This document shows positions 21,118 to 33,387 of a stretch of DNA of 64,000 bases, one piece after another. A program made the position numbers and the translations under genes. The notes beneath the pieces were generated by a model that saw nothing but the letters and a program-made list of their open reading frames with translations, did not search any database and had not been told where the DNA came from. The stretch's first letter is position 1. Every line of letters starts with the position of its first letter. The stretch covers positions 496,001-560,000 of the forward strand of contig NZ_JAQSDY010000027.1 in NCBI RefSeq assembly GCF_029946145.1. Direction: 5' to 3'. The DNA comes from Brevundimonas sp. (GTDB taxonomy: Bacteria > Pseudomonadota > Alphaproteobacteria > Caulobacterales > Caulobacteraceae).

Positions 21118-21749
21118 GACCGCAGCACTCCGGCCCGCCGCAGCTCTTCCAGCACCGGCCACAGCGGCAGACCCAGGACGGTGAAATAGTCGCCCTCCAC
21201 CACCTCGAACAGCTGTGCGCCCATCCCCTCCAGCCGATAGGATCCGACGCAGGCCAGCAGTCCGTCGCCCTCGGCTTTCAGATAGGCGTCCAGAAAACCG
21301 TCCGAGAAATTCCGCACCCGCATTGTCGCCGTGTCGACGCCCGACCAGAACACCTGCCCGTACCGCGCCAGCGCCGCGCCCGAATGCAGCTGGTGCGCCT
21401 TGCCCCGCATCGCCATCAGCCCGTCCCGCGCCTCGTCCCGGGAAGCAGCCTTCGACACCAGCCCGCCTTCGAAGGCCAGGGTCTGGTCCGCCCCAAGCAC
21501 CCAGGCCTCCGCATCGTGTCGCGAAACCGCCAGCGCCTTGACCCGAGCCAGCTCGACCGCCAGTCCCGCGGCGTCGGCCGGGTCGTGCGTGGCCTTGACC
21601 GCATCCTCGTCGATGTCGGCGACCTGGACCGAAAACGGCACGCCGGCGCCTTCCAGCATGGCCCGGCGGGCGACGCTCTTTGATGCAAGGATCAGACGCT
21701 CGCCGCGCTCATGCAGCCCGAGGGTCGACGGCGCACCGGAAATGCTCAC
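21114..21749 (-). CDS. Maf-like nucleoside triphosphate pyrophosphatase
   Basis: 211 residues. The Maf signature LILASKSVARRAMLEGAGV opens the protein; the catalytic Asp lies in WVLGADQTLAFEG and the third motif in DGFLDAYLKAEGDGLLACVGSYRLEG. Maf enzymes hydrolyse modified or canonical NTPs to the monophosphate; the SVARRAML form resembles YceF-type m7GTP enzymes, but substrate is not assignable. Overlaps aroE and ppsR by 4 bases each. Confidence 0.92.
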   Translation of the reverse strand: MSISGAPSTLGLHERGERLILASKSVARRAMLEGAGVPFSVQVADIDEDAVKATHDPADAAGLAVELARVKALAVSRHDAEAWVLGADQTLAFEGGLVSKAASRDEARDGLMAMRGKAHQLHSGAALARYGQVFWSGVDTATMRVRNFSDGFLDAYLKAEGDGLLACVGSYRLEGMGAQLFEVVEGDYFTVLGLPLWPVLEELRRAGVLRS

Positions 21750-22630
21750 CAGGTCGCTCCCAGCCGGCGCGTGCGGCGCTCGTTCAGCACATTGATGATC
21801 GCGGCGGCCGTCTCCTCGACCGAACGACGGGTCACGTCGATAACCGGCCAGCCGCGCCTTTCGAACGCCCGGCGCGCCCTGACCGTCTCGTCGCGCACGG
21901 CGTCGTGATCAACATAGGAGGACGCCCGCGTCGCGTTCAGCCCGTCCAGCCTGTTCTTGCGGATTTGCACCAGCCGATCGGGCGACACGGTCAGGCCGAC
22001 GATCAGCGGATTCTTCAGCCCGACCAGCCGTTCGCCGTCCTCCTGACCCGGCACCAGCGGCACATTGGCGGCGCGGATGCCGCGGTGGGCCAGATAGATG
22101 CAGGTCGGGGTCTTGGAGGTGCGGCTGACCCCGCACAGCACCACATCGGCGCTTTCCAGCTGGGCTGTCGTGCCCTGGCCGTCATCGTGCGCCATGGCGA
22201 AGTCCAGCGCCGCGATGCGGTTGAAATAGTCGGTGTCGAGCGCGTGCTGCGCCCCCACCCGCGTCGACAGGGCCGCCCCCAGATAGCGCGACAGGGCGCC
22301 GACCAGGGGATCCAGCGCCGCGATCTGCGGCATGTCCAGCCTGCGGCACCCCGCTTCCAGCTGTTCGCGCAGCTCCCGATCAACCAGGGTATGCAGAACC
22401 ACGCCCGGCGAGGAAGCGATCTCCTCCAGCACCCGCTCCATCTGCTTGTCGTTCCGCACCAGGGCGTAGATGTGCTCGATCGGAATGACTCCGTCGAAGC
22501 GCGCCACCACGGCCTTGGCCATGGCGTTCAGGGTCTCCCCGGTGGAATCCGAGACCAGGTGGACATGGAAATAGGTGGCCAGTCGCGTCGGTCCCGTGGT
22601 CCGGCCCGTCCCTGTTGCGCCCGGCGTCAT
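21746..22630 (-). CDS. ppsR: PEP synthase/PPDK regulatory kinase-pyrophosphorylase (DUF299, PSRP/PpsR)
   Basis: 294 residues from the ATG at 22630; the 405-residue track ORF runs through the origin. Start of the fold: HLVSDSTGETLNAMAKAVVA; P-loop-like GVSRTSKTPTCIYLA at about residue 165; KNPLIVGLTVSPDRL after it. A bifunctional enzyme that inactivates by ADP-dependent phosphorylation and reactivates by phosphorolysis either PEP synthase or pyruvate phosphate dikinase. In Caulobacter a DUF299 gene likewise borders Cori opposite hemE. Confidence 0.93.
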   Translation of the reverse strand: MTPGATGTGRTTGPTRLATYFHVHLVSDSTGETLNAMAKAVVARFDGVIPIEHIYALVRNDKQMERVLEEIASSPGVVLHTLVDRELREQLEAGCRRLDMPQIAALDPLVGALSRYLGAALSTRVGAQHALDTDYFNRIAALDFAMAHDDGQGTTAQLESADVVLCGVSRTSKTPTCIYLAHRGIRAANVPLVPGQEDGERLVGLKNPLIVGLTVSPDRLVQIRKNRLDGLNATRASSYVDHDAVRDETVRARRAFERRGWPVIDVTRRSVEETAAAIINVLNERRTRRLGATW

Positions 22631-22818
22631 CGGCGGCTGTCCATATGTGCGAGACTCCTGTGGACGGGGCGGGGCGCCGTTGGCCCGCGGCTGTCGGTCT
22701 TTCCCTATAGCCGGGCCGGACGAGGGCGGCGAGCGGGGACAGGGGTGGACGAGACATGCATCGCCGGGCCGGTTCATCCCAAGGCCGTCATCCGTCACCG
22801 GTTCGCCTGTGGAGATCC

Positions 22819-22833
22819 TTAATGAGGGGTTAA
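22819..22833 (+). promoter_or_regulatory. CtrA box 1, TTAATGAGGGGTTAA
   Basis: Exact TTAA-N7-TTAA match followed by C, the full CtrA consensus. In Caulobacter CtrA~P bound at such boxes in Cori silences initiation. Its position in the ppsR-hemE gap supports the origin call. Confidence 0.8.
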
Positions 22834-22878
22834 CGGCGCCCAGCCGCCATGGTCGGCCCCTCCCCGAAAAGCCCGTCC

Positions 22879-22893
22879 TTAATGCCTCGTTAG
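22879..22893 (+). promoter_or_regulatory. CtrA box 2, TTAATGCCTCGTTAG
   Basis: TTAA-N7-TTAG, one mismatch from the CtrA consensus, 60 bases to the right of box 1 and 3 bases before a DnaA-like motif, so CtrA and DnaA could compete here. Confidence 0.7.
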
Positions 22894-22896
22894 GAC

Positions 22897-22905
22897 TTAT
22901 CCCCG
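22897..22905 (+). promoter_or_regulatory. DnaA-box-like motif 1, TTATCCCCG
   Basis: Seven of nine bases of TTATCCACA, directly beside CtrA box 2. An identical nonamer recurs at 22988-22996, supporting a functional origin-specific variant. Confidence 0.6.
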
Positions 22906-22987
22906 CTTTCACCAGCCCGGTGCATGACGGTGCGGCGTCTGTGACCATTTGCGGAAAACCCATCCGTCCGCGTCCGAACGATCCGGC

Positions 22988-22996
22988 TTATCCCCG
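22988..22996 (+). promoter_or_regulatory. DnaA-box-like motif 2, TTATCCCCG
   Basis: Second exact copy of the nonamer, same strand, just left of the AT-rich tract at 23013-23056, as expected for a box that loads DnaA next to an unwinding element. Confidence 0.6.
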
Positions 22997-23114
22997 CCAT
23001 CCCCCGTACTGTCTTCTACCTCCAAAACTTTCGAATCTTTCTTGATAAGGATTGAAGGGGTGCGACACGGGTCGGGCTTGAGCCTGAACCGGGCCACCGG
23101 TAGGACCGGGTCAG

Positions 23115-24161
23115 ATGACCGTCTCACCCCCCACACCGTTGCTTCTCAAGGTTCTCTCCGGGGAGACGACCTCACGTCCACCGGTCTGGTTCATGCGTCA
23201 GGCCGGGCGCTACCTGCCGGAGTATCGGGCGCTCAGGGCGACGACGCCGGACTTCATCTCCTTCTGTCTGGATCCGGAAAAGGCCGCCGAGGCGACGCTG
23301 CAGCCGATGCGCCGTTTCGGCTTCGACGCCGCCATCGTCTTCGCCGACATCCTGTTGATCCCCCGGGCGTTGGGTCAGGAGGTCTGGTTCGAGGCCGGCG
23401 AGGGGCCGCGGCTGGGCGCACTGCCTCCTGTTGAGGCCATGCGGGACCTGACATCCGGGGCCGGCGAGGCGCTGAAACAGGTCGGCCAGACCCTGTCGAT
23501 CGTGCGGGCGCAGCTGGATCCGGAGCGCGCCCTGATCGGGTTCGCCGGCGCGCCCTGGACCGTCGCCACCTATATGCTGGACGGCGAGGCCCGGACGATC
23601 GGCAAGGGCGAACGCGCCCAGGCCCGGACCTACGCCTATGCCGAGCCGGAAAAGGTCGCGGCCCTGCTCGAGGTGCTGGTCGAGGCCACGGCCCATTATC
23701 TGAAGATGCAGGCCGACGCCGGGGCCCAGGTGCTGAAGATCTTCGAGAGCTGGGCCGAGGGCCTGCCGGAAGACCTGTTCGAAAGCCTGGTCCTGCGGCC
23801 TCATCAGCAACTGGTCCGCCGGGTGCGCGAACTGGGTGTCACCGTGCCCCTGATCGGCTTCCCGAGGGGCTCGGCGGCGCTGGCGGAACGCTACGCCGCC
23901 GAGGTCGACGTTCAGGCCGTGGCCCTGGACACCGCCTGCCCGCTTGAGATCGGTCGCCGCGTCCAGGCGATCAAGCCGATCCAGGGCGCGCTCGATCCCC
24001 TGCTGCTGCGCGCCGGCGGCCCGATGCTCGATCGCCGCGTCGACCAGCTGCTCGAGGCCTGGGGGCAGGGACCGTGGATCTTCAATCTCGGCCACGGCAT
24101 CCTGCCCGACGTCCCGATCGCCCATGTCGAACAGGTGCTGAAACGGATCGGCGCCCAATGA
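23115..24161 (+). CDS. hemE: Uroporphyrinogen decarboxylase
   Basis: 348 residues. Signature RPPVWFMRQAGRYLPEYR near residue 20 with the substrate-binding arginines, IGFAGAPWTVATYML at about 140, and the C-terminal FNLGHGILPDVP. Converts uroporphyrinogen III to coproporphyrinogen III. First gene of a haem operon: its TGA overlaps the hemH ATG. Its promoter must lie in the origin, as reported for Caulobacter hemE. Confidence 0.97.
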   Translation: MTVSPPTPLLLKVLSGETTSRPPVWFMRQAGRYLPEYRALRATTPDFISFCLDPEKAAEATLQPMRRFGFDAAIVFADILLIPRALGQEVWFEAGEGPRLGALPPVEAMRDLTSGAGEALKQVGQTLSIVRAQLDPERALIGFAGAPWTVATYMLDGEARTIGKGERAQARTYAYAEPEKVAALLEVLVEATAHYLKMQADAGAQVLKIFESWAEGLPEDLFESLVLRPHQQLVRRVRELGVTVPLIGFPRGSAALAERYAAEVDVQAVALDTACPLEIGRRVQAIKPIQGALDPLLLRAGGPMLDRRVDQLLEAWGQGPWIFNLGHGILPDVPIAHVEQVLKRIGAQ

Positions 24162-27352: not shown

Positions 27353-27368
27353 TGTTTCACGTGAAACA
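27353..27368. promoter_or_regulatory. parS: parS site 1, TGTTTCACGTGAAACA
   Basis: Perfect 16-bp palindrome identical to the canonical ParB-binding site, 12 bases after the rho stop and about 4.3 kb from the origin. Confidence 0.93.
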
Positions 27369-27380
27369 TGGAGCGGCGGC

Positions 27381-27620
27381 ATGAAGGTCAACGTTGAAGT
27401 CGAGTGCACGCCCGAGGAGGCCCGCGTCTTCATGGGCCTGCCCAATGTCGAACCGCTGAACGACCATCTGGTCGCCGAGATGAAGCGGCGCATGGACGAG
27501 AACATCACGGCCATGCAACCGGACGAACTGATGAAGACCTGGACCAGCTTCGGCCTTCAGGCCCAGGACCAGTTCCGCAAGCTGATGGAAACCGCCGTCA
27601 CCGGCGCGACCCGGCCGTGA
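27381..27620 (+). CDS. DUF6489 family protein
   Basis: 79-residue soluble protein beginning MKVNVEVECTPEEARVFMGL, a conserved small alphaproteobacterial family that I recall as DUF6489. A strand and turn are followed by two amphipathic helices (LNDHLVAEMKRRMDENI; FGLQAQDQFRKLMETAV). No catalytic motif. It sits 12 bases after a parS site and 40 bases after rho, so it may be read from the rho transcript. Confidence 0.78.
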   Translation: MKVNVEVECTPEEARVFMGLPNVEPLNDHLVAEMKRRMDENITAMQPDELMKTWTSFGLQAQDQFRKLMETAVTGATRP

Positions 27621-27626
27621 CCTCCG

Positions 27627-27758
27627 TCTCCTCCCCCGCAGGGGGAGGGGGACCGCGAAGCGGTGGAGGGGGCCTGTCCGCATCCGCCGGCGTCGCCCCC
27701 TCCGTCACGCCGCCAAGGCGGCGCGCCACCTCCCCATCGCTGCGCGACAGGGAGGAGA
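27627..27758. repeat. Dispersed repeat A relative, copy 3
   Basis: CTCCTCCCCC-GCA-GGGGGAGG with a following AGCGG/TGGAGGGGGC arm and a right end GACAGGGAGGAGA. The terminal GGAGGAG sits immediately before the mnmE ATG at 27760 and so provides its Shine-Dalgarno. Confidence 0.65.
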
Positions 27759-27759
27759 C

Positions 27760-29064
27760 ATGAGCACCATCTTCGCCCTTGCCACCCCTCCGGGCCGGGG
27801 CGCCATCGCCATCCTCCGCCTCTCCGGTCCATCCACCGACGCCGCCCTGACCGCTCTCGGCGCCGGCGGCCTTAAGCCGCGTCTCGCCTCGCTGCGGACC
27901 CTGACCCATGCCGGCCAGGCCGTCGACCAGGCCCTCGTCCTGCGTTTCCCCGCCCCCAACAGCTACACCGGCGAGGACTGCGCCGAGCTCCACCTCCACG
28001 GCGGCCGCGCCGTGGTCGAGGCCGCCAGCCAGGCCTTGATCGCCCTCGGCCTGCGCCCCGCCGATCCCGGAGAATTCACCCGCCGGGCTTTCGAGAACGG
28101 CCGCATGGATCTGGCCCAGGCCGAGGCCGTGGCCGACCTGATCGACGCCGAGACCACGGCCCAGGCGGCCCAGGCGCGGGGCCAGCTGGACGGCGCCCTG
28201 TCGCGCACCTACGCCGGTTTCCGCCGCGACCTGCTCAAGGCCATGGCTCTGGTCGAGGCCGAGATCGATTTTCCGGACGAGGAGATTCCCGACAATCTGG
28301 CCCGCACGGCCGGACCGGTTCTCGACGCCCTGATCGCCGATCTGGGCGCGGCCCTGGCCGACTCCCGGCGCGGCGAGCGGGTGCGCGAGGGCTATCGCAT
28401 CGTCCTGATCGGCGAGACCAACGCCGGCAAGTCCTCGCTGTTCAACGCCCTGATCGCGCGCGAGGCCGCTATCGTCACCCCGATCGCGGGCACCACCCGG
28501 GACGTGCTGGACGTTGATCTGATCATCGGCGGATACGCCGTGACCCTGTCGGACACGGCCGGCCTGCGCGAGTCCGACGATGTCGTCGAGGCCGAGGGCG
28601 TTCGACGCGCGCGGGCCCGGGCCGAGGCGGCGGAGTTGCGGCTCTGGGTCCGCGGCCCGGGCGATCCGGCGGGCGCCGCGGCCGACCATGTGAGGCCGGG
28701 CGACCTGTTGATCCTCAACAAGGCAGACCTCGGAGAGGCGGAACCCGTCGCCGGCATGGAAAGTCTCGCGATCAGCACCGCGACGGGGCGGGGGTTGGCT
28801 GAGCTGCACGACTGGATTGCGGCCCGGCTCGCCCGCGATCTGTCGGGCGCCGATTTCCCGGCGGTCACCCGCGAGCGCCACCGCCGCCGTCTGACCGAGG
28901 CTCTCGCGGACGTCGAGGCGGCGCGGCGGGCGCTCGACCACACGCCGGAAATGGCCGGCGACGATCTTCGCCGGGCGGCGGAGACCCTGGGCCGGGTCAC
29001 GGGCGCCATCGGCGTCGAAGACATTCTCGGCGAGGTCTTCTCGACCTTCTGCATCGGCAAGTGA
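27760..29064 (+). CDS. mnmE: tRNA uridine-5-carboxymethylaminomethyl modification GTPase MnmE
   Basis: 434 residues. N-terminal tetrahydrofolate-binding domain (TIFALATPPGRGAIAILRLSG), helical domain with an inserted GTPase (P-loop GETNAGKSSLFNALI at about 213-227, DTAG in LSDTAGLRE, NKAD in LILNKADLG) and the invariant C-terminal CIGK. With MnmG it makes cmnm5U34 in tRNA. The ribosome-binding site comes from a repeat A element. A parS site begins 2 bases after its stop. Confidence 0.97.
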   Translation: MSTIFALATPPGRGAIAILRLSGPSTDAALTALGAGGLKPRLASLRTLTHAGQAVDQALVLRFPAPNSYTGEDCAELHLHGGRAVVEAASQALIALGLRPADPGEFTRRAFENGRMDLAQAEAVADLIDAETTAQAAQARGQLDGALSRTYAGFRRDLLKAMALVEAEIDFPDEEIPDNLARTAGPVLDALIADLGAALADSRRGERVREGYRIVLIGETNAGKSSLFNALIAREAAIVTPIAGTTRDVLDVDLIIGGYAVTLSDTAGLRESDDVVEAEGVRRARARAEAAELRLWVRGPGDPAGAAADHVRPGDLLILNKADLGEAEPVAGMESLAISTATGRGLAELHDWIAARLARDLSGADFPAVTRERHRRRLTEALADVEAARRALDHTPEMAGDDLRRAAETLGRVTGAIGVEDILGEVFSTFCIGK

Positions 29065-29066
29065 GG

Positions 29067-29082
29067 TGTTTCACGTGAAACC
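29067..29082. promoter_or_regulatory. parS: parS site 2, TGTTTCACGTGAAACC
   Basis: One mismatch from site 1 at the last base. Lies in the 69-bp mnmE-mnmG gap. Confidence 0.9.
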
Positions 29083-29133
29083 ACTCTCCGGCGCCGGTGG
29101 CGTTTCGGGCGCTTTTGCCCTATCTCCCCGGCC

Positions 29134-30990
29134 ATGAAATCCTTCGATGTCATCGTCATCGGCGGCGGCCACGCCGGCTGCGAGGCCGCGGCCGCCTCCG
29201 CGCGCGCCGGGGCGAAGACGGTGCTGCTGACCCAGAAACTCGAGACCGTCGGCGAGATGTCGTGCAACCCGGCCATCGGCGGACTGGGCAAGGGCCATCT
29301 GGTGCGTGAGATCGACGCCATGGACGGCGTCATGGCCCGGCTGGGCGATGTCTCCGGCATCCAGTTCCGCCTGCTCAACCGCTCCAAGGGGGCCGCGGTT
29401 CAGGGGCCGCGCAGCCAGATCGACCGCCGCCTTTATCGCGAGGCCATGCAGACGGAACTGGCGCAGACGCCGAACCTGACCCTGATGGCCGGAACAGCCG
29501 AAAGCCTGATCCTCGACGGCGGCCGCGTCGTCGGCGTCGTCACGGGCGAGGGGACCGAGGTTCGCGCCGGCGCGGTGGTGCTGACCACGGGCACCTTCCT
29601 CAACGGCGTCATACACAAGGGCGACCAGCGCATCCCCGCCGGCCGCCACGGCGAGGCGCCGTCCACCGGCCTGGCCGCCGACCTCTATGGCGCGGGCTTG
29701 CAGATGGGCCGGCTAAAGACCGGCACTCCCGCCCGCCTCGACGGCCGCACCATCGCCTGGGACCGGCTGGAGATGCAGGCGGCGGACGCCGAGCCCGCGC
29801 CGTTCAGCTTCCTGACCGACCGCATTGACGTGCCCCAGATCGCCTGCGGGGTGACCCACACGACCGAGGCCACCCACCGGATCATCGCCGACAACCTGGG
29901 CGACAGCGCCGTCTATGGCGGCCACCTGTCCGGCCGCGGCCCGCGTTACTGCCCCTCGATCGAGGACAAGGTGGTCCGGTTCGCCGACAAGGCCTCGCAC
30001 CAGATCTTCCTCGAGCCCGAGGGCCTCGACGATCCGACGGTCTATCCCAACGGCATCTCGACCTCGGTGTCCGATGCGACCCAGGCCGCCTTCCTGCGCA
30101 CCATTCCGGGGCTGGAGGCGGTCGAGGTGTTCCGCTTCGGCTACGCCATCGAGTACGACTATGTCGATCCGCGCGAGCTGACGCCGGCGCTGGAGGTCAA
30201 GAAGCGGCCCGGCCTTTATCTGGCCGGCCAGATCAACGGCACCACAGGATACGAGGAGGCCGGAGCTCAAGGGTTGATCGCCGGCCTGAACGCCGCCCGC
30301 GCCGCCGCCGGCTCGGACCCCATCATCCTTGGCCGGGACCAGGCCTATATCGGCGTCATGATCGACGATCTGGTCACACGCGGCGTGACCGAGCCCTACC
30401 GGATGTTCACCAGCCGGGCCGAGTTCAGGTTGACGCTGCGGGCCGACAATGCGGATCAACGGCTGACCCCCATCGCCGAGGCGGCTGGAATTGTGTCGTC
30501 CAGGCGGTCACAGGCTTTCGCAGCCAAATCCGCGCAGCTGGCCGAGGCGGCGGCTGTTTCACGTGAAACGGTCTTTACGCCCAGGGAGGCCGGGGCTTTG
30601 GGGATCCACGTCAACGCCGACGGCCAGCGCCGCTCGATCCGCGACCTTCTGGCCTTCCCCGGTGTGACTCTGGAGACCTTCGCCGCAACCCGGTCCGAGA
30701 TCGCGGGCTGGTCGCCCCAGGTCCGCCAGCAGATCGAGATCGAAGCGGGCTACGCCGGCTATCTGGACCGGCAGGCTTCTGACGCGGAGGCGCTGCGGCG
30801 CGAGGAGGCCCTGGCCCTGCCGGTTGACCTCGACTACGCCGCCATCGGCAGCCTGTCGAACGAGGTCCGTGAGAAACTCACGCTTGTCCGGCCGCGCACC
30901 CTGGGTCAGGCCGGGCGCATCGAAGGTATGACCCCCGGCGCCCTGACGGCGCTTCTGTCCCACGTGAAGCGCGCCCGGGTGGCTGCGTGA
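29134..30990 (+). CDS. mnmG: tRNA uridine-5-carboxymethylaminomethyl modification enzyme MnmG (GidA)
   Basis: 618 residues. FAD-binding [20 protein letters not shown] at the N-terminus; signature [18 protein letters not shown] at about 270 and [20 protein letters not shown] at about 367; the C-terminal helical MnmE-binding domain ends with [10 protein letters not shown]. Partner of MnmE; the two are separated only by a parS-bearing gap. A third parS site sits inside this gene. Confidence 0.97.
30555..30570. promoter_or_regulatory. parS: parS site 3, TGTTTCACGTGAAACG, inside mnmG
   Basis: One mismatch at the final base. It encodes VSRET in the C-terminal part of MnmG, so the gene accommodates the site in frame. 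Confidence 0.88.
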
Positions 30991-31042
30991 CTCGCGTCGC
31001 CTTCGCGTCTCCTCTGCCTGAAATCGGGGAGGAGACCCGTCC

Positions 31043-31663
31043 ATGACCCCCGAAGAATTCCAGATCCAGACCGGCGCGACCCTCGCGCAGATGGCCGACC
31101 TTCACATCTTCATCGAGCGCCTGACCGAGACCAATGCGGTGATGAATCTCGTCGGTCCCGACAGCCTGCCCGACGTCTGGAACCGGCATATCTGGGACTC
31201 GGCCCAACTGCTCGCGATGAAGCCCAATGCGAAGACCTGGGCCGATCTCGGGGCCGGGGCCGGGTTCCCCGGTCTGGTTCTCGCGATTCTGCTGAAGGAT
31301 CGGTCCGACAGCCACGTCTGGCTGATCGACAGTCTGGGCAAGCGTTGCCGCTTCCTGCAGGAGGCGGTCGAAGGCCTGTCGCTGCGCGCCACCGTGATCA
31401 ATGGCCGGGCCGAGGAGCAGAGGATAAAGGTGGACGTCGTCACCGCGCGCGCCCTGGCGCCGATGGAGCGGCTTCTGGCCTATGCACAGCCTTATCTACA
31501 GCGTGGCGCACAGGGGCTGTTTCTCAAGGGGGAAAAGGCCGAGGCTGAGTTGATCGAAGCCCGCAAGGTCTGGCAGTTCGATAGCGACCTCTCCGTCTCG
31601 CGCAGCGATCCGCGCGGCCGTATCGTTTCCGTCCGGAGCCTTCGACGTGTCCCCAACCGGTAA
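31043..31663 (+). CDS. rsmG: 16S rRNA (guanine-527-N7) methyltransferase RsmG (GidB)
   Basis: 206 residues. SAM-binding motif WADLGAGAGFPGLVLAIL near residue 65 and the second strand VWLIDSLGKRCRFLQE; the family region VTARALAPMERLLAYAQPYL follows. Methylates G527 in 16S rRNA; loss gives low-level streptomycin resistance. Its end overlaps the GTG start of parA by 17 bases, indicating coupled translation. Confidence 0.95.
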   Translation: MTPEEFQIQTGATLAQMADLHIFIERLTETNAVMNLVGPDSLPDVWNRHIWDSAQLLAMKPNAKTWADLGAGAGFPGLVLAILLKDRSDSHVWLIDSLGKRCRFLQEAVEGLSLRATVINGRAEEQRIKVDVVTARALAPMERLLAYAQPYLQRGAQGLFLKGEKAEAELIEARKVWQFDSDLSVSRSDPRGRIVSVRSLRRVPNR

Positions 31664-32459
31664 GACTCGCGTCCTCGCGGTTTCCAATCAGAAGGGCGGC
31701 GTCGGCAAGACCACGACCGCCATCAACCTGGGCACCGCCCTGGCTGCGATCGGCGAAAAGGTGCTGATCGTCGACATGGATCCGCAGGGCAATGCCTCCA
31801 CGGGTCTGGGTGTTCCACGTGAAACACGACGGGTGACCATCTATGACGTCATCGTCGACGGCCGCTCGGTCGACGAGTCCGCCGTCCCGACCAGCGTGCC
31901 CGGCCTCCACATCATTCCCGCCGACGCCGACATGTCGGGCGTGGAGATCGAGCTGAGCCAGGCCGACCGCCGCTCCTTTCGTCTGCGTGACGCACTCTCG
32001 GGGCAGGGGGCGGATGGGCAGGCCCGGTATGACTATGTCCTGATCGACTGCCCCCCGTCGCTGAACCTGCTGACCCTCAACGCCATGGCCGCGGCGGACG
32101 CCGTGCTGGTGCCGCTGCAATGCGAGTTCTTCGCGCTGGAGGGCCTGACCCAGCTGATGAAGACGATCGAGATGGTGCGGCAGAGCCTTAATCCCACGCT
32201 GGAGATCCAGGGTCTGGTCCTGACCATGTACGATCGGCGCAGCACCCTGTCGGGTCAGGTCGCGGCCGACGTCCGGTCCCATTTCGGGGAGAAGGTCTAT
32301 GAGGCGGTCATTCCCCGCAACGTGCGCGTGGCCGAGGCTCCGTCATTCGGCAAGCCGGCCTTGATCTACGACCTGAAATGCGCCGGCAGCCAGGCCTATC
32401 TGCGCCTCGCCCGTGAAGTGGTGGCGCGTGAGAAGTCCCGTCGGCTTCAGGCCGCGTGA
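31647..32459 (+). CDS. parA: Chromosome partitioning ATPase ParA
   Basis: 270 residues from a GTG start. Deviant Walker A KGGVGKTTTAIN near residues 14-25 carries the extra lysine that marks ParA; Walker A' VDMDPQGNAS; Walker B YDYVLIDCPPSL. ATP-bound dimers coat the nucleoid and are released by ParB-parS, pulling the origin to the pole. Overlaps rsmG and precedes parB by 28 bases. A parS-like site is embedded in it. Confidence 0.97.
   Translation: MSPTGKTRVLAVSNQKGGVGKTTTAINLGTALAAIGEKVLIVDMDPQGNASTGLGVPRETRRVTIYDVIVDGRSVDESAVPTSVPGLHIIPADADMSGVEIELSQADRRSFRLRDALSGQGADGQARYDYVLIDCPPSLNLLTLNAMAAADAVLVPLQCEFFALEGLTQLMKTIEMVRQSLNPTLEIQGLVLTMYDRRSTLSGQVAADVRSHFGEKVYEAVIPRNVRVAEAPSFGKPALIYDLKCAGSQAYLRLAREVVAREKSRRLQAA
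31811..31826. promoter_or_regulatory. parS: parS site 4, TGTTCCACGTGAAACA, inside parA
   Basis: One internal change (T to C in the left arm) from the perfect palindrome. It encodes VPRET in ParA. Confidence 0.85.
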
Positions 32460-32487: not shown

Positions 32488-33387
32488 TTGAGCGAACGTC
32501 AACGCGGGCCGCAACGGGGATTGGGGCGAGGTCTCTCCGCCCTTCTGGGTGAACAGGTGGCCGAGAGCGCGCCGGTCGATGGCGCGCCCGCGCCCGCGGG
32601 CGTGCGCATGGCCCCGATCGAGAGCCTGAAGCCCAATCCGGAACAGCCCCGCAAGATCTTCAACAACGACGATCTGGCCGAGCTGTCGGGCTCGATCCGC
32701 GACAAGGGCGTTCTGCAGCCGATCCTGGTGCGGTCCCAGCCGGGTCAGGATGGCGTGTGGCAGATCATCGCCGGCGAACGCCGCTGGCGCGCGGCCCAGC
32801 TGGCGCGTCTGACCGAGGTGCCGATCGTGGTCCGCGAGATGGACGACGTCGAGGTGTTCGAGGTGGCGATCATCGAGAACGTCCAGCGCAGCGACCTGAA
32901 CCCGCTGGAGGAGGCCGACGCCTATCGCATGCTGATGGAACGGTTCGGCCGCACCCAGGACGCCGTCGCCGGCGTCGTCGGCAAGAGCCGCAGCCACGTG
33001 GCCAATACCCTGCGCCTGCTGCAGCTGCCGGAAGAGGTCCTCTGGTTCGTGCGCCACGGCAAGATGAGCGCCGGCCACGCCCGCGCACTGATCACGGCCC
33101 CGAACCCGGCTGTCCTCGCCCAGCAGATCGTCGACGCGGGGTTGAACGTTCGTCAGGCCGAAGCGCTGGCGCGCCGCGCCGCCGAAGGGCCGAAGCCCGC
33201 CAAGGCGCGGGCGAAGGCGCCCTCTGGGGAGGGCGCGGCCGATGTGGTGGCGCTGGAGCAGGATCTGGCCGACGCCCTCGGCCTGAAGGTCCAGTTGTCG
33301 GACAAGGGCGGCAAGGGCGAGATCACCATCCGCTACGGCACGCTGGAGCAGCTGGACGACCTCTGCCGGCGGCTGATGCGGGGCTGA
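32488..33387 (+). CDS. parB: Chromosome partitioning protein ParB (CTPase, parS binding)
   Basis: 299 residues from a TTG start, supported by the N-terminal ParA-stimulating motif (GLGRGLSALLG). CTP-binding motifs AGERRWRAAQL and IENVQRSDLNPLEEA lie in the N-terminal domain at about 90-145; the HTH (VAGVVGKSRSHVANTLRLLQ) follows; the C-terminal dimerisation domain is at about 250-299 after a basic linker. It loads at parS and slides as a CTP clamp. The weak start codon may limit ParB relative to ParA. Confidence 0.97.
   Translation: MSERQRGPQRGLGRGLSALLGEQVAESAPVDGAPAPAGVRMAPIESLKPNPEQPRKIFNNDDLAELSGSIRDKGVLQPILVRSQPGQDGVWQIIAGERRWRAAQLARLTEVPIVVREMDDVEVFEVAIIENVQRSDLNPLEEADAYRMLMERFGRTQDAVAGVVGKSRSHVANTLRLLQLPEEVLWFVRHGKMSAGHARALITAPNPAVLAQQIVDAGLNVRQAEALARRAAEGPKPAKARAKAPSGEGAADVVALEQDLADALGLKVQLSDKGGKGEITIRYGTLEQLDDLCRRLMRG

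Follow-up and report, generated by a model that had tools for sequence, protein, structure and literature searches.

Repression of the origin Cori by CtrA is a textbook example of how cell fate is tied to DNA replication. Shaheen et al. reportedly described in 2009 origins of freshwater and marine caulobacters in which a DnaA box is paired with a CtrA site. In Caulobacter crescentus, the mapped hemE-CC_0001 origin is bordered by hemE and a COG1806 gene (PMC1914354), and parS lies about 8 kb from it (PMC6399470). Exclusion of DnaA from Cori by CtrA is the simplest mechanism published for this species, and lowering the affinity for CtrA at all five sites only mildly perturbed its replication cycle in the laboratory (PMC4468827). 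Origins bordered by hemE are also found in Wolbachia, Rickettsia, Ehrlichia and Anaplasma, with a variable number of CtrA sites that can fall to zero (PMC1914354).

Here, we analysed a stretch of 64 kb (the window, to which bare positions refer) from a Brevundimonas, a genus described as dividing asymmetrically (PMC3885167). We give a probability of roughly 85% to the proposal that the gap between ppsR and hemE is the origin and that CtrA would exclude DnaA there from A and B, two of the three DnaA-like sites that we call A, B and C. The rigid two-box design seen in most species, and dropped by one clade, makes the purpose of origin-bound CtrA testable with natural species.

The ppsR-hemE gap and its conservation in the genus

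The divergent genes ppsR and hemE start at 22630 on the minus strand and at 23115 on the plus strand, leaving a gap of 484 bp (Table 1). The first-pass annotation had placed this gap at the location of the Caulobacter Cori, and profile matches confirm the families of both border genes. The two CtrA boxes, two TTATCCCCG nonamers, two GANTC sites and AT-rich tract by hemE that it listed are positioned correctly to the base, and the spacing that it reported between box 2 and a DnaA-like motif is exactly 3 bp. From left to right, the gap carries site A, box 1, about 45 bp, box 2, site B, site C and the AT-rich tract, in a region of around 30% AT. Three features had been missed: site A, an inverted half-site that reads TGTGGA on the plus strand (22808-22813) to the left of box 1, the CCATCCCCC in tandem with site C, and a cluster of parS-like sites 4.2-8.7 kb rightward.

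Few of these motifs are expected by chance. Perfect TTAA-N7-TTAA occurs 6 times in the whole genome of 3.49 Mb, box 1 included, which gives about 8e-4 expected per 484 bp. With up to one mismatch, there are three CtrA sites in the window and two of them are inside the gap. Likewise, two of the three TTATCCCCG of the window (both strands) fall within the gap, against 0.02 expected. The two GANTC sites (0.6 expected) are unremarkable for a single gap, but across the gaps of the genus (125 loci, see below) we found 3.0 per gap against 1.7 in shuffled ones, a mild enrichment that makes a role of CcrM at Brevundimonas origins possible. Genome-wide, TTAA-N7-TTAA shows no excess over the reversed control (6 vs 6), which means that a regulon cannot be delimited here by this motif on its own. 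The motif scan of the gap found neither the strict DnaA consensus TTATNCACA nor the G-box TGATCCACA, its nonamers being TTATCCCCG, which differs from the strong TTATCCACA. Neither the box region nor the putative DUE region showed any unusual structure on strand folding.

We then searched 131 Brevundimonas genomes for a composite pattern, i.e. a CtrA box, six free bases and TCCMC. The composite (box 2, 3 bp, DnaA-like box) is found once in the genome under study and in 80 of the 131 genomes, nearly always once, whereas the reversed control matches none of the 131. Gaps were collected from the hemE loci of the other genomes and from the stretches around the remaining composite matches, making a set of 125. 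In these, CtrA sites with no more than one mismatch number 195, against 3.1 when shuffled, and the count of CtrA boxes is none in 21 gaps, one in 20, two in 77 and three in 7. Seventy gaps have both the composite and box 1. In 67 of them the two boxes are separated by 60-65 bp and in the other 3 by 52-53 bp, about one helical turn shorter; in 58, TGTGGA or TGGGGA stands to the left of box 1 at a single fixed distance. The distance from site B to site C is 91-93 bp for 74 of the 76 downstream sites among composite-bearing gaps. Conservation extends to bases outside the search pattern: site A is one case, and the first two T's of the site B nonamer are another, conserved at 98-100% while flanking columns average about 0.5. 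Fixed spacings and conserved bases that were not searched for thus indicate that each CtrA box is flanked on its outer side by a DnaA-like site. At the position of the AT-rich tract, the AT content averaged over 108 gaps is 0.6-0.77.

Two boxes had been read as possibly a reduced version of Cori. We rejected this reading, because two boxes are the norm of the genus and their positions are unlike those of Caulobacter; a separate layout accounts for the gap equally well or better. The expectation that the motifs would be conserved in relatives held in part: the DnaA-like sites mostly persist, but the CtrA boxes were lost in several lineages. L125, the closest relative examined (97% HemE identity), has a degenerate box 2, as do L001 and L151, and the B. 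viscosa group lacks box 1. For annotation, a CtrA box followed after 3 bp by TTNTCCMC is a usable recognition pattern for Brevundimonas origins. Two metagenome-assembled genomes have record titles that look wrong: in the "Bordetella" L003 the locus is that of a Brevundimonas (86% HemE identity), and the identity of the "Brevundimonas vancanneytii" L012 is only 66%.

Table 1. Features in and around the ppsR-hemE gap (positions in the window; strand given where it applies).
Feature	Position	Strand	Basis or remark
ppsR (COG1806/DUF299), left border gene	21746..22630	-	NCBIfam NF003742 above cut-off
GANTC (CcrM) site	22653..22657		motif scan
DnaA-like site A, ATCTCCACA, half-site TCCACA	22808..22816	-	2 bp from box 1; fixed offset across genus
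CtrA box 1, TTAATGAGGGGTTAA, perfect TTAA-N7-TTAA	22819..22833		motif scan
CtrA box 2, TTAATGCCTCGTTAG, one mismatch	22879..22893		motif scan, genus survey
DnaA-like site B, TTATCCCCG	22897..22905	+	exactly 3 bp from box 2
DnaA-like site C, TTATCCCCG, DUE-side	22988..22996	+	starts 91 bp after site B start
CCATCCCCC, possible weak site in tandem with site C	22997..23005	+	conserved TCCCCGcC.TcCC in genus consensus
AT-rich tract, candidate unwinding region	~23010..23059		0.63-0.67 AT in 30-bp windows
GANTC (CcrM) site	23033..23037		motif scan
hemE, right border gene	23115..24161	+	TIGR01464 above cut-off
parS-like site, perfect	27353..27368		motif scan
parS-like site, one mismatch	29067..29082		motif scan
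parS-like site, one mismatch	30555..30570		motif scan
parS-like site, perfect	31811..31826		motif scan
parA	31647..32459	+	best NCBIfam matches ParA/MinD-type, below cut-offs; identity also via gene order
parB	32488..33387	+	TIGR00180 above cut-off

Probable origin function and a proposed role of CtrA

Replication of the chromosome very probably starts from this gap, as the first-pass annotation had suggested. Its claim of a Cori-like origin is well supported by the conserved location, the turn of the GC skew, the parS sites with parAB and the composite element conserved in the genus. Several features of a Cori-type origin are present, i.e. the border genes, CtrA sites above chance, DnaA boxes (as variants), the AT-rich tract and a skew turn (about 8 kb away). 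From the motifs and their spacings we infer DnaA binding to the variant boxes, CtrA binding and competition, melting of the AT-rich tract and a start of replication at this place. DnaA would bind site C, and with it B and A, opening the tract next to hemE. In the non-replicating cell, phosphorylated CtrA would occupy boxes 1 and 2 and sterically exclude DnaA from A and B, which would hold off initiation; upon removal of CtrA, DnaA would assemble. The exclusion would concern A and B because each box lies 2-3 bp from an outer DnaA-like site, a spacing that makes it plausible. Competition between CtrA and DnaA is quite likely the main mechanism, and the earlier remark that the layout suits it gains good support from the genus-wide composite and the fixed spacings. 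The W-box of C. crescentus, with consensus TCCCCA (PMC4285127), is very weak, and TTATCCCCG combines the 5' half of the strong box with a C-rich 3' half like that of the W-box; a low affinity of TTATCCCCG would suit competition.

One might argue that the gap is the origin but that its CtrA boxes act mainly on transcription, from the hemE and ppsR promoters or of an origin transcript. CtrA is mainly a transcription factor, a gap between divergent genes must hold their promoters, and promoter activation has also been discussed for Cori (PMC4468827). Yet both boxes stand at fixed distances of 2-3 bp from DnaA-like sites genus-wide, and they are 220-310 bp from the start of hemE, with the DUE-side site lying in between. 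A mainly transcriptional role is unlikely, even if a dual role remains compatible with these observations.

The skew bears on whether replication starts in the gap at all. Checking it, as had been suggested, placed the cumulative minimum (249 kb of the contig) at 31213, some 8 kb off the gap and within the parS/parAB stretch. In the complete genomes of two congeners, G037 and G061, sampled coarsely in 20 kb stretches about every 150 kb (single stretches being noisy), the skew passes from negative to positive in the region of hemE and reverses roughly opposite on the chromosome. In G037, which is boxless, the turn lies between 2.40 and 2.70 Mb and hemE at 2.56 Mb; in G061 the skew is slightly negative next to the module, which is at 0.345 Mb, and has become positive by 0.63 Mb. 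Rightward of hemE the gene order is hemH, rho, mnmE, mnmG (gidA), rsmG (gidB), parA and parB, and four parS-like sites (27353-31826, against 0.03 expected) are scattered over 4.5 kb in the stretch between rho and parA. Given the position of the minimum, the true start could be sought near parS (around 31 kb), the gap being merely a promoter region regulated by CtrA and DnaA. This is very unlikely. Skew turns are imprecise origin markers (PMC1914354), the same border genes flank the mapped origin of C. crescentus, whose parS likewise lies at about 8 kb (PMC6399470), and the DnaA-like sites and the AT-rich tract are in the gap and conserved. As for chance matches in a long intergenic gap, which motifs so short and partly degenerate, with a mismatch in one CtrA box, might have suggested, the genus survey refutes them by the excess of sites over shuffled gaps, by the composite that is missing from the reversed control and by spacings that stay fixed while the flanks drift.

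Elsewhere in the genome, the dnaA gene (C27:261498) is some 257 kb away from the gap, and ctrA (G000:C9:97840-98520) is 87% identical to our C. crescentus query, an approximate value, the query being meant only as a probe. Adjoining ctrA on the opposite strand, G000:C9:97290-97481 (L317) has a weak match, below cut-off, to a DnaA_C-like helix-turn-helix; it is possibly a SciP/DUF1153-type protein.

Loss of CtrA boxes around B. diminuta

Among the 21 species without any CtrA box in the gap, 19 form one clade that includes B. diminuta. On a tree of ppsR and hemE (quick search, no bootstrap), box loss requires three changes and this clade has 99% SH-aLRT. Degenerate sites with up to two mismatches are no more frequent than expected (0.48 in the 21 boxless gaps against 0.54 when shuffled and 3.09 in other species), TTAA half-sites number 0.7 per gap against 3.8 in other species, and no CtrA sites were found in the boxless gaps at the alternative spacings N5, N6 and N8. 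Most of these gaps retain DnaA-like sites at the B and C positions. The ctrA gene was found in 20 of the 21 boxless genomes (the exception is incomplete), at an approximate 87-89% identity to the C. crescentus query, and the DNA-recognition stretch of CtrA (53 residues) is identical in all 23 proteins compared. Most boxless genomes also keep the genus-wide TTAAC-N4/5-TTAAG-type element in the ctrA promoter. Hence, the loss hit the sites at the origin, and neither the protein nor, as far as its sequence tells, its specificity. CtrA binds imperfect sites too, so that a missing consensus does not prove missing binding. Within this free-living genus, direct control of the origin by CtrA would on balance seem to have been lost in the clade of 19 species, while CtrA, its recognition stretch and most DnaA-like sites were kept. 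With box 2 gone from the nearest relatives and every box from 21 species, CtrA cannot be essential to origin function throughout the genus. Its control of the origin appears to be an overlay that a lineage may lose. If so, CtrA repression of the origin is an evolvable addition to a conserved DnaA core, and B. diminuta and the box-bearing Brevundimonas provide a natural experiment on its role. The open literature that we searched yielded no description of the loss in B. diminuta or of the genus-wide two-box spacing; we claim no priority for the layout.

In a boxless subgroup (L145, L164), the site B position reads the strong consensus TTATCCACA (gap positions 372-373). Stronger DnaA binding where the CtrA boxes are gone is worth testing.

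The ctrA promoter of the boxless clade and of its sister carries a CtrA-type box of the form TTAA-N7-TTGA, TTAACGAATCSTTGA, about 170 bp upstream of ctrA and overlapping a -35-like TTGAC (L225-L245, L350). It is present in 18 of 20 boxless genomes and in none of 33 box-bearing ones; G058, a sister species, has it as well. This box may be an autoregulatory site particular to the clade and, by its position over the -35-like TTGAC, could strengthen autorepression. We considered a trade-off between boxes at the origin and at the ctrA promoter and rejected it: all cases are in one clade, the two singleton boxless species lack the promoter box, G058 has it yet keeps an origin box, and the conserved -35-like TTGAC partly generates the match. 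The boxless clade being mainly one event, correlations of this kind carry little weight.

Comparison with described origins

The basal unwinding system (BUS) is defined by a DnaA box with three or more DnaA-trios no farther than 16 bp from it (PMC8287927). The gap resembles it by a DnaA-like box and a weaker tandem one pointing toward the AT-rich tract, but the run of DnaA-trios after site C averages 1.87 against 2.39 in shuffled sequences, short of the BUS definition.

The likeness to the Cori of C. crescentus is closer. Both have the same border genes, the same gap size, an AT-rich tract, CtrA boxes beside DnaA-like sites, parS at about 8 kb and a DUE-side TTNTCC[CA]C site in matching position. 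In 28 Caulobacter-type gaps this site is always present (positions 388-397), as the positional counterpart of site C, and it is found in most other Caulobacteraceae gaps compared. The CtrA boxes of these 28 gaps are typically at about 54, 264, 312, 434 and 455, with the G-box TGATCCACA beside the first in most. Measured from the DUE-side site, the boxes are at -169 and -109 in Brevundimonas but at about -337, -127, -79, +43 and +64 in a Caulobacter-type gap (L293). This suggests that the DUE-side DnaA site is the stable element and that the CtrA boxes moved, in agreement with a published view of CtrA use at origins as evolutionarily flexible (PMC4468827). Brevundimonas also differs by having two CtrA boxes instead of the four or five of the C. 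crescentus Cori, no G-box, no box over the AT-rich tract, no overlapping IHF 12-mer and nonamers that read TTATCCCCG. The set that defines the C. crescentus Cori proper, i.e. about five CtrA sites, two G-boxes and a CtrA/IHF dual site, is therefore not what this gap contains. The IHF 12-mer TAACGCTCTGTT, published for C. crescentus (PMC4285127), was found only in two Caulobacter gaps (L288 and L293), across the third box. A scan for the IHF consensus WATCAAN4TTR, which is insensitive, matched none of the 125 Brevundimonas gaps and none of the 28 Caulobacter ones.

The caulobacter origins of Shaheen et al. are reportedly alike in setting a CtrA site against a DnaA box, where the two proteins would compete. 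The boxless Brevundimonas resemble the hemE-bordered origins of Wolbachia, Rickettsia, Ehrlichia and Anaplasma that have no CtrA site, but those bacteria are obligate intracellular whereas Brevundimonas is a free-living genus.
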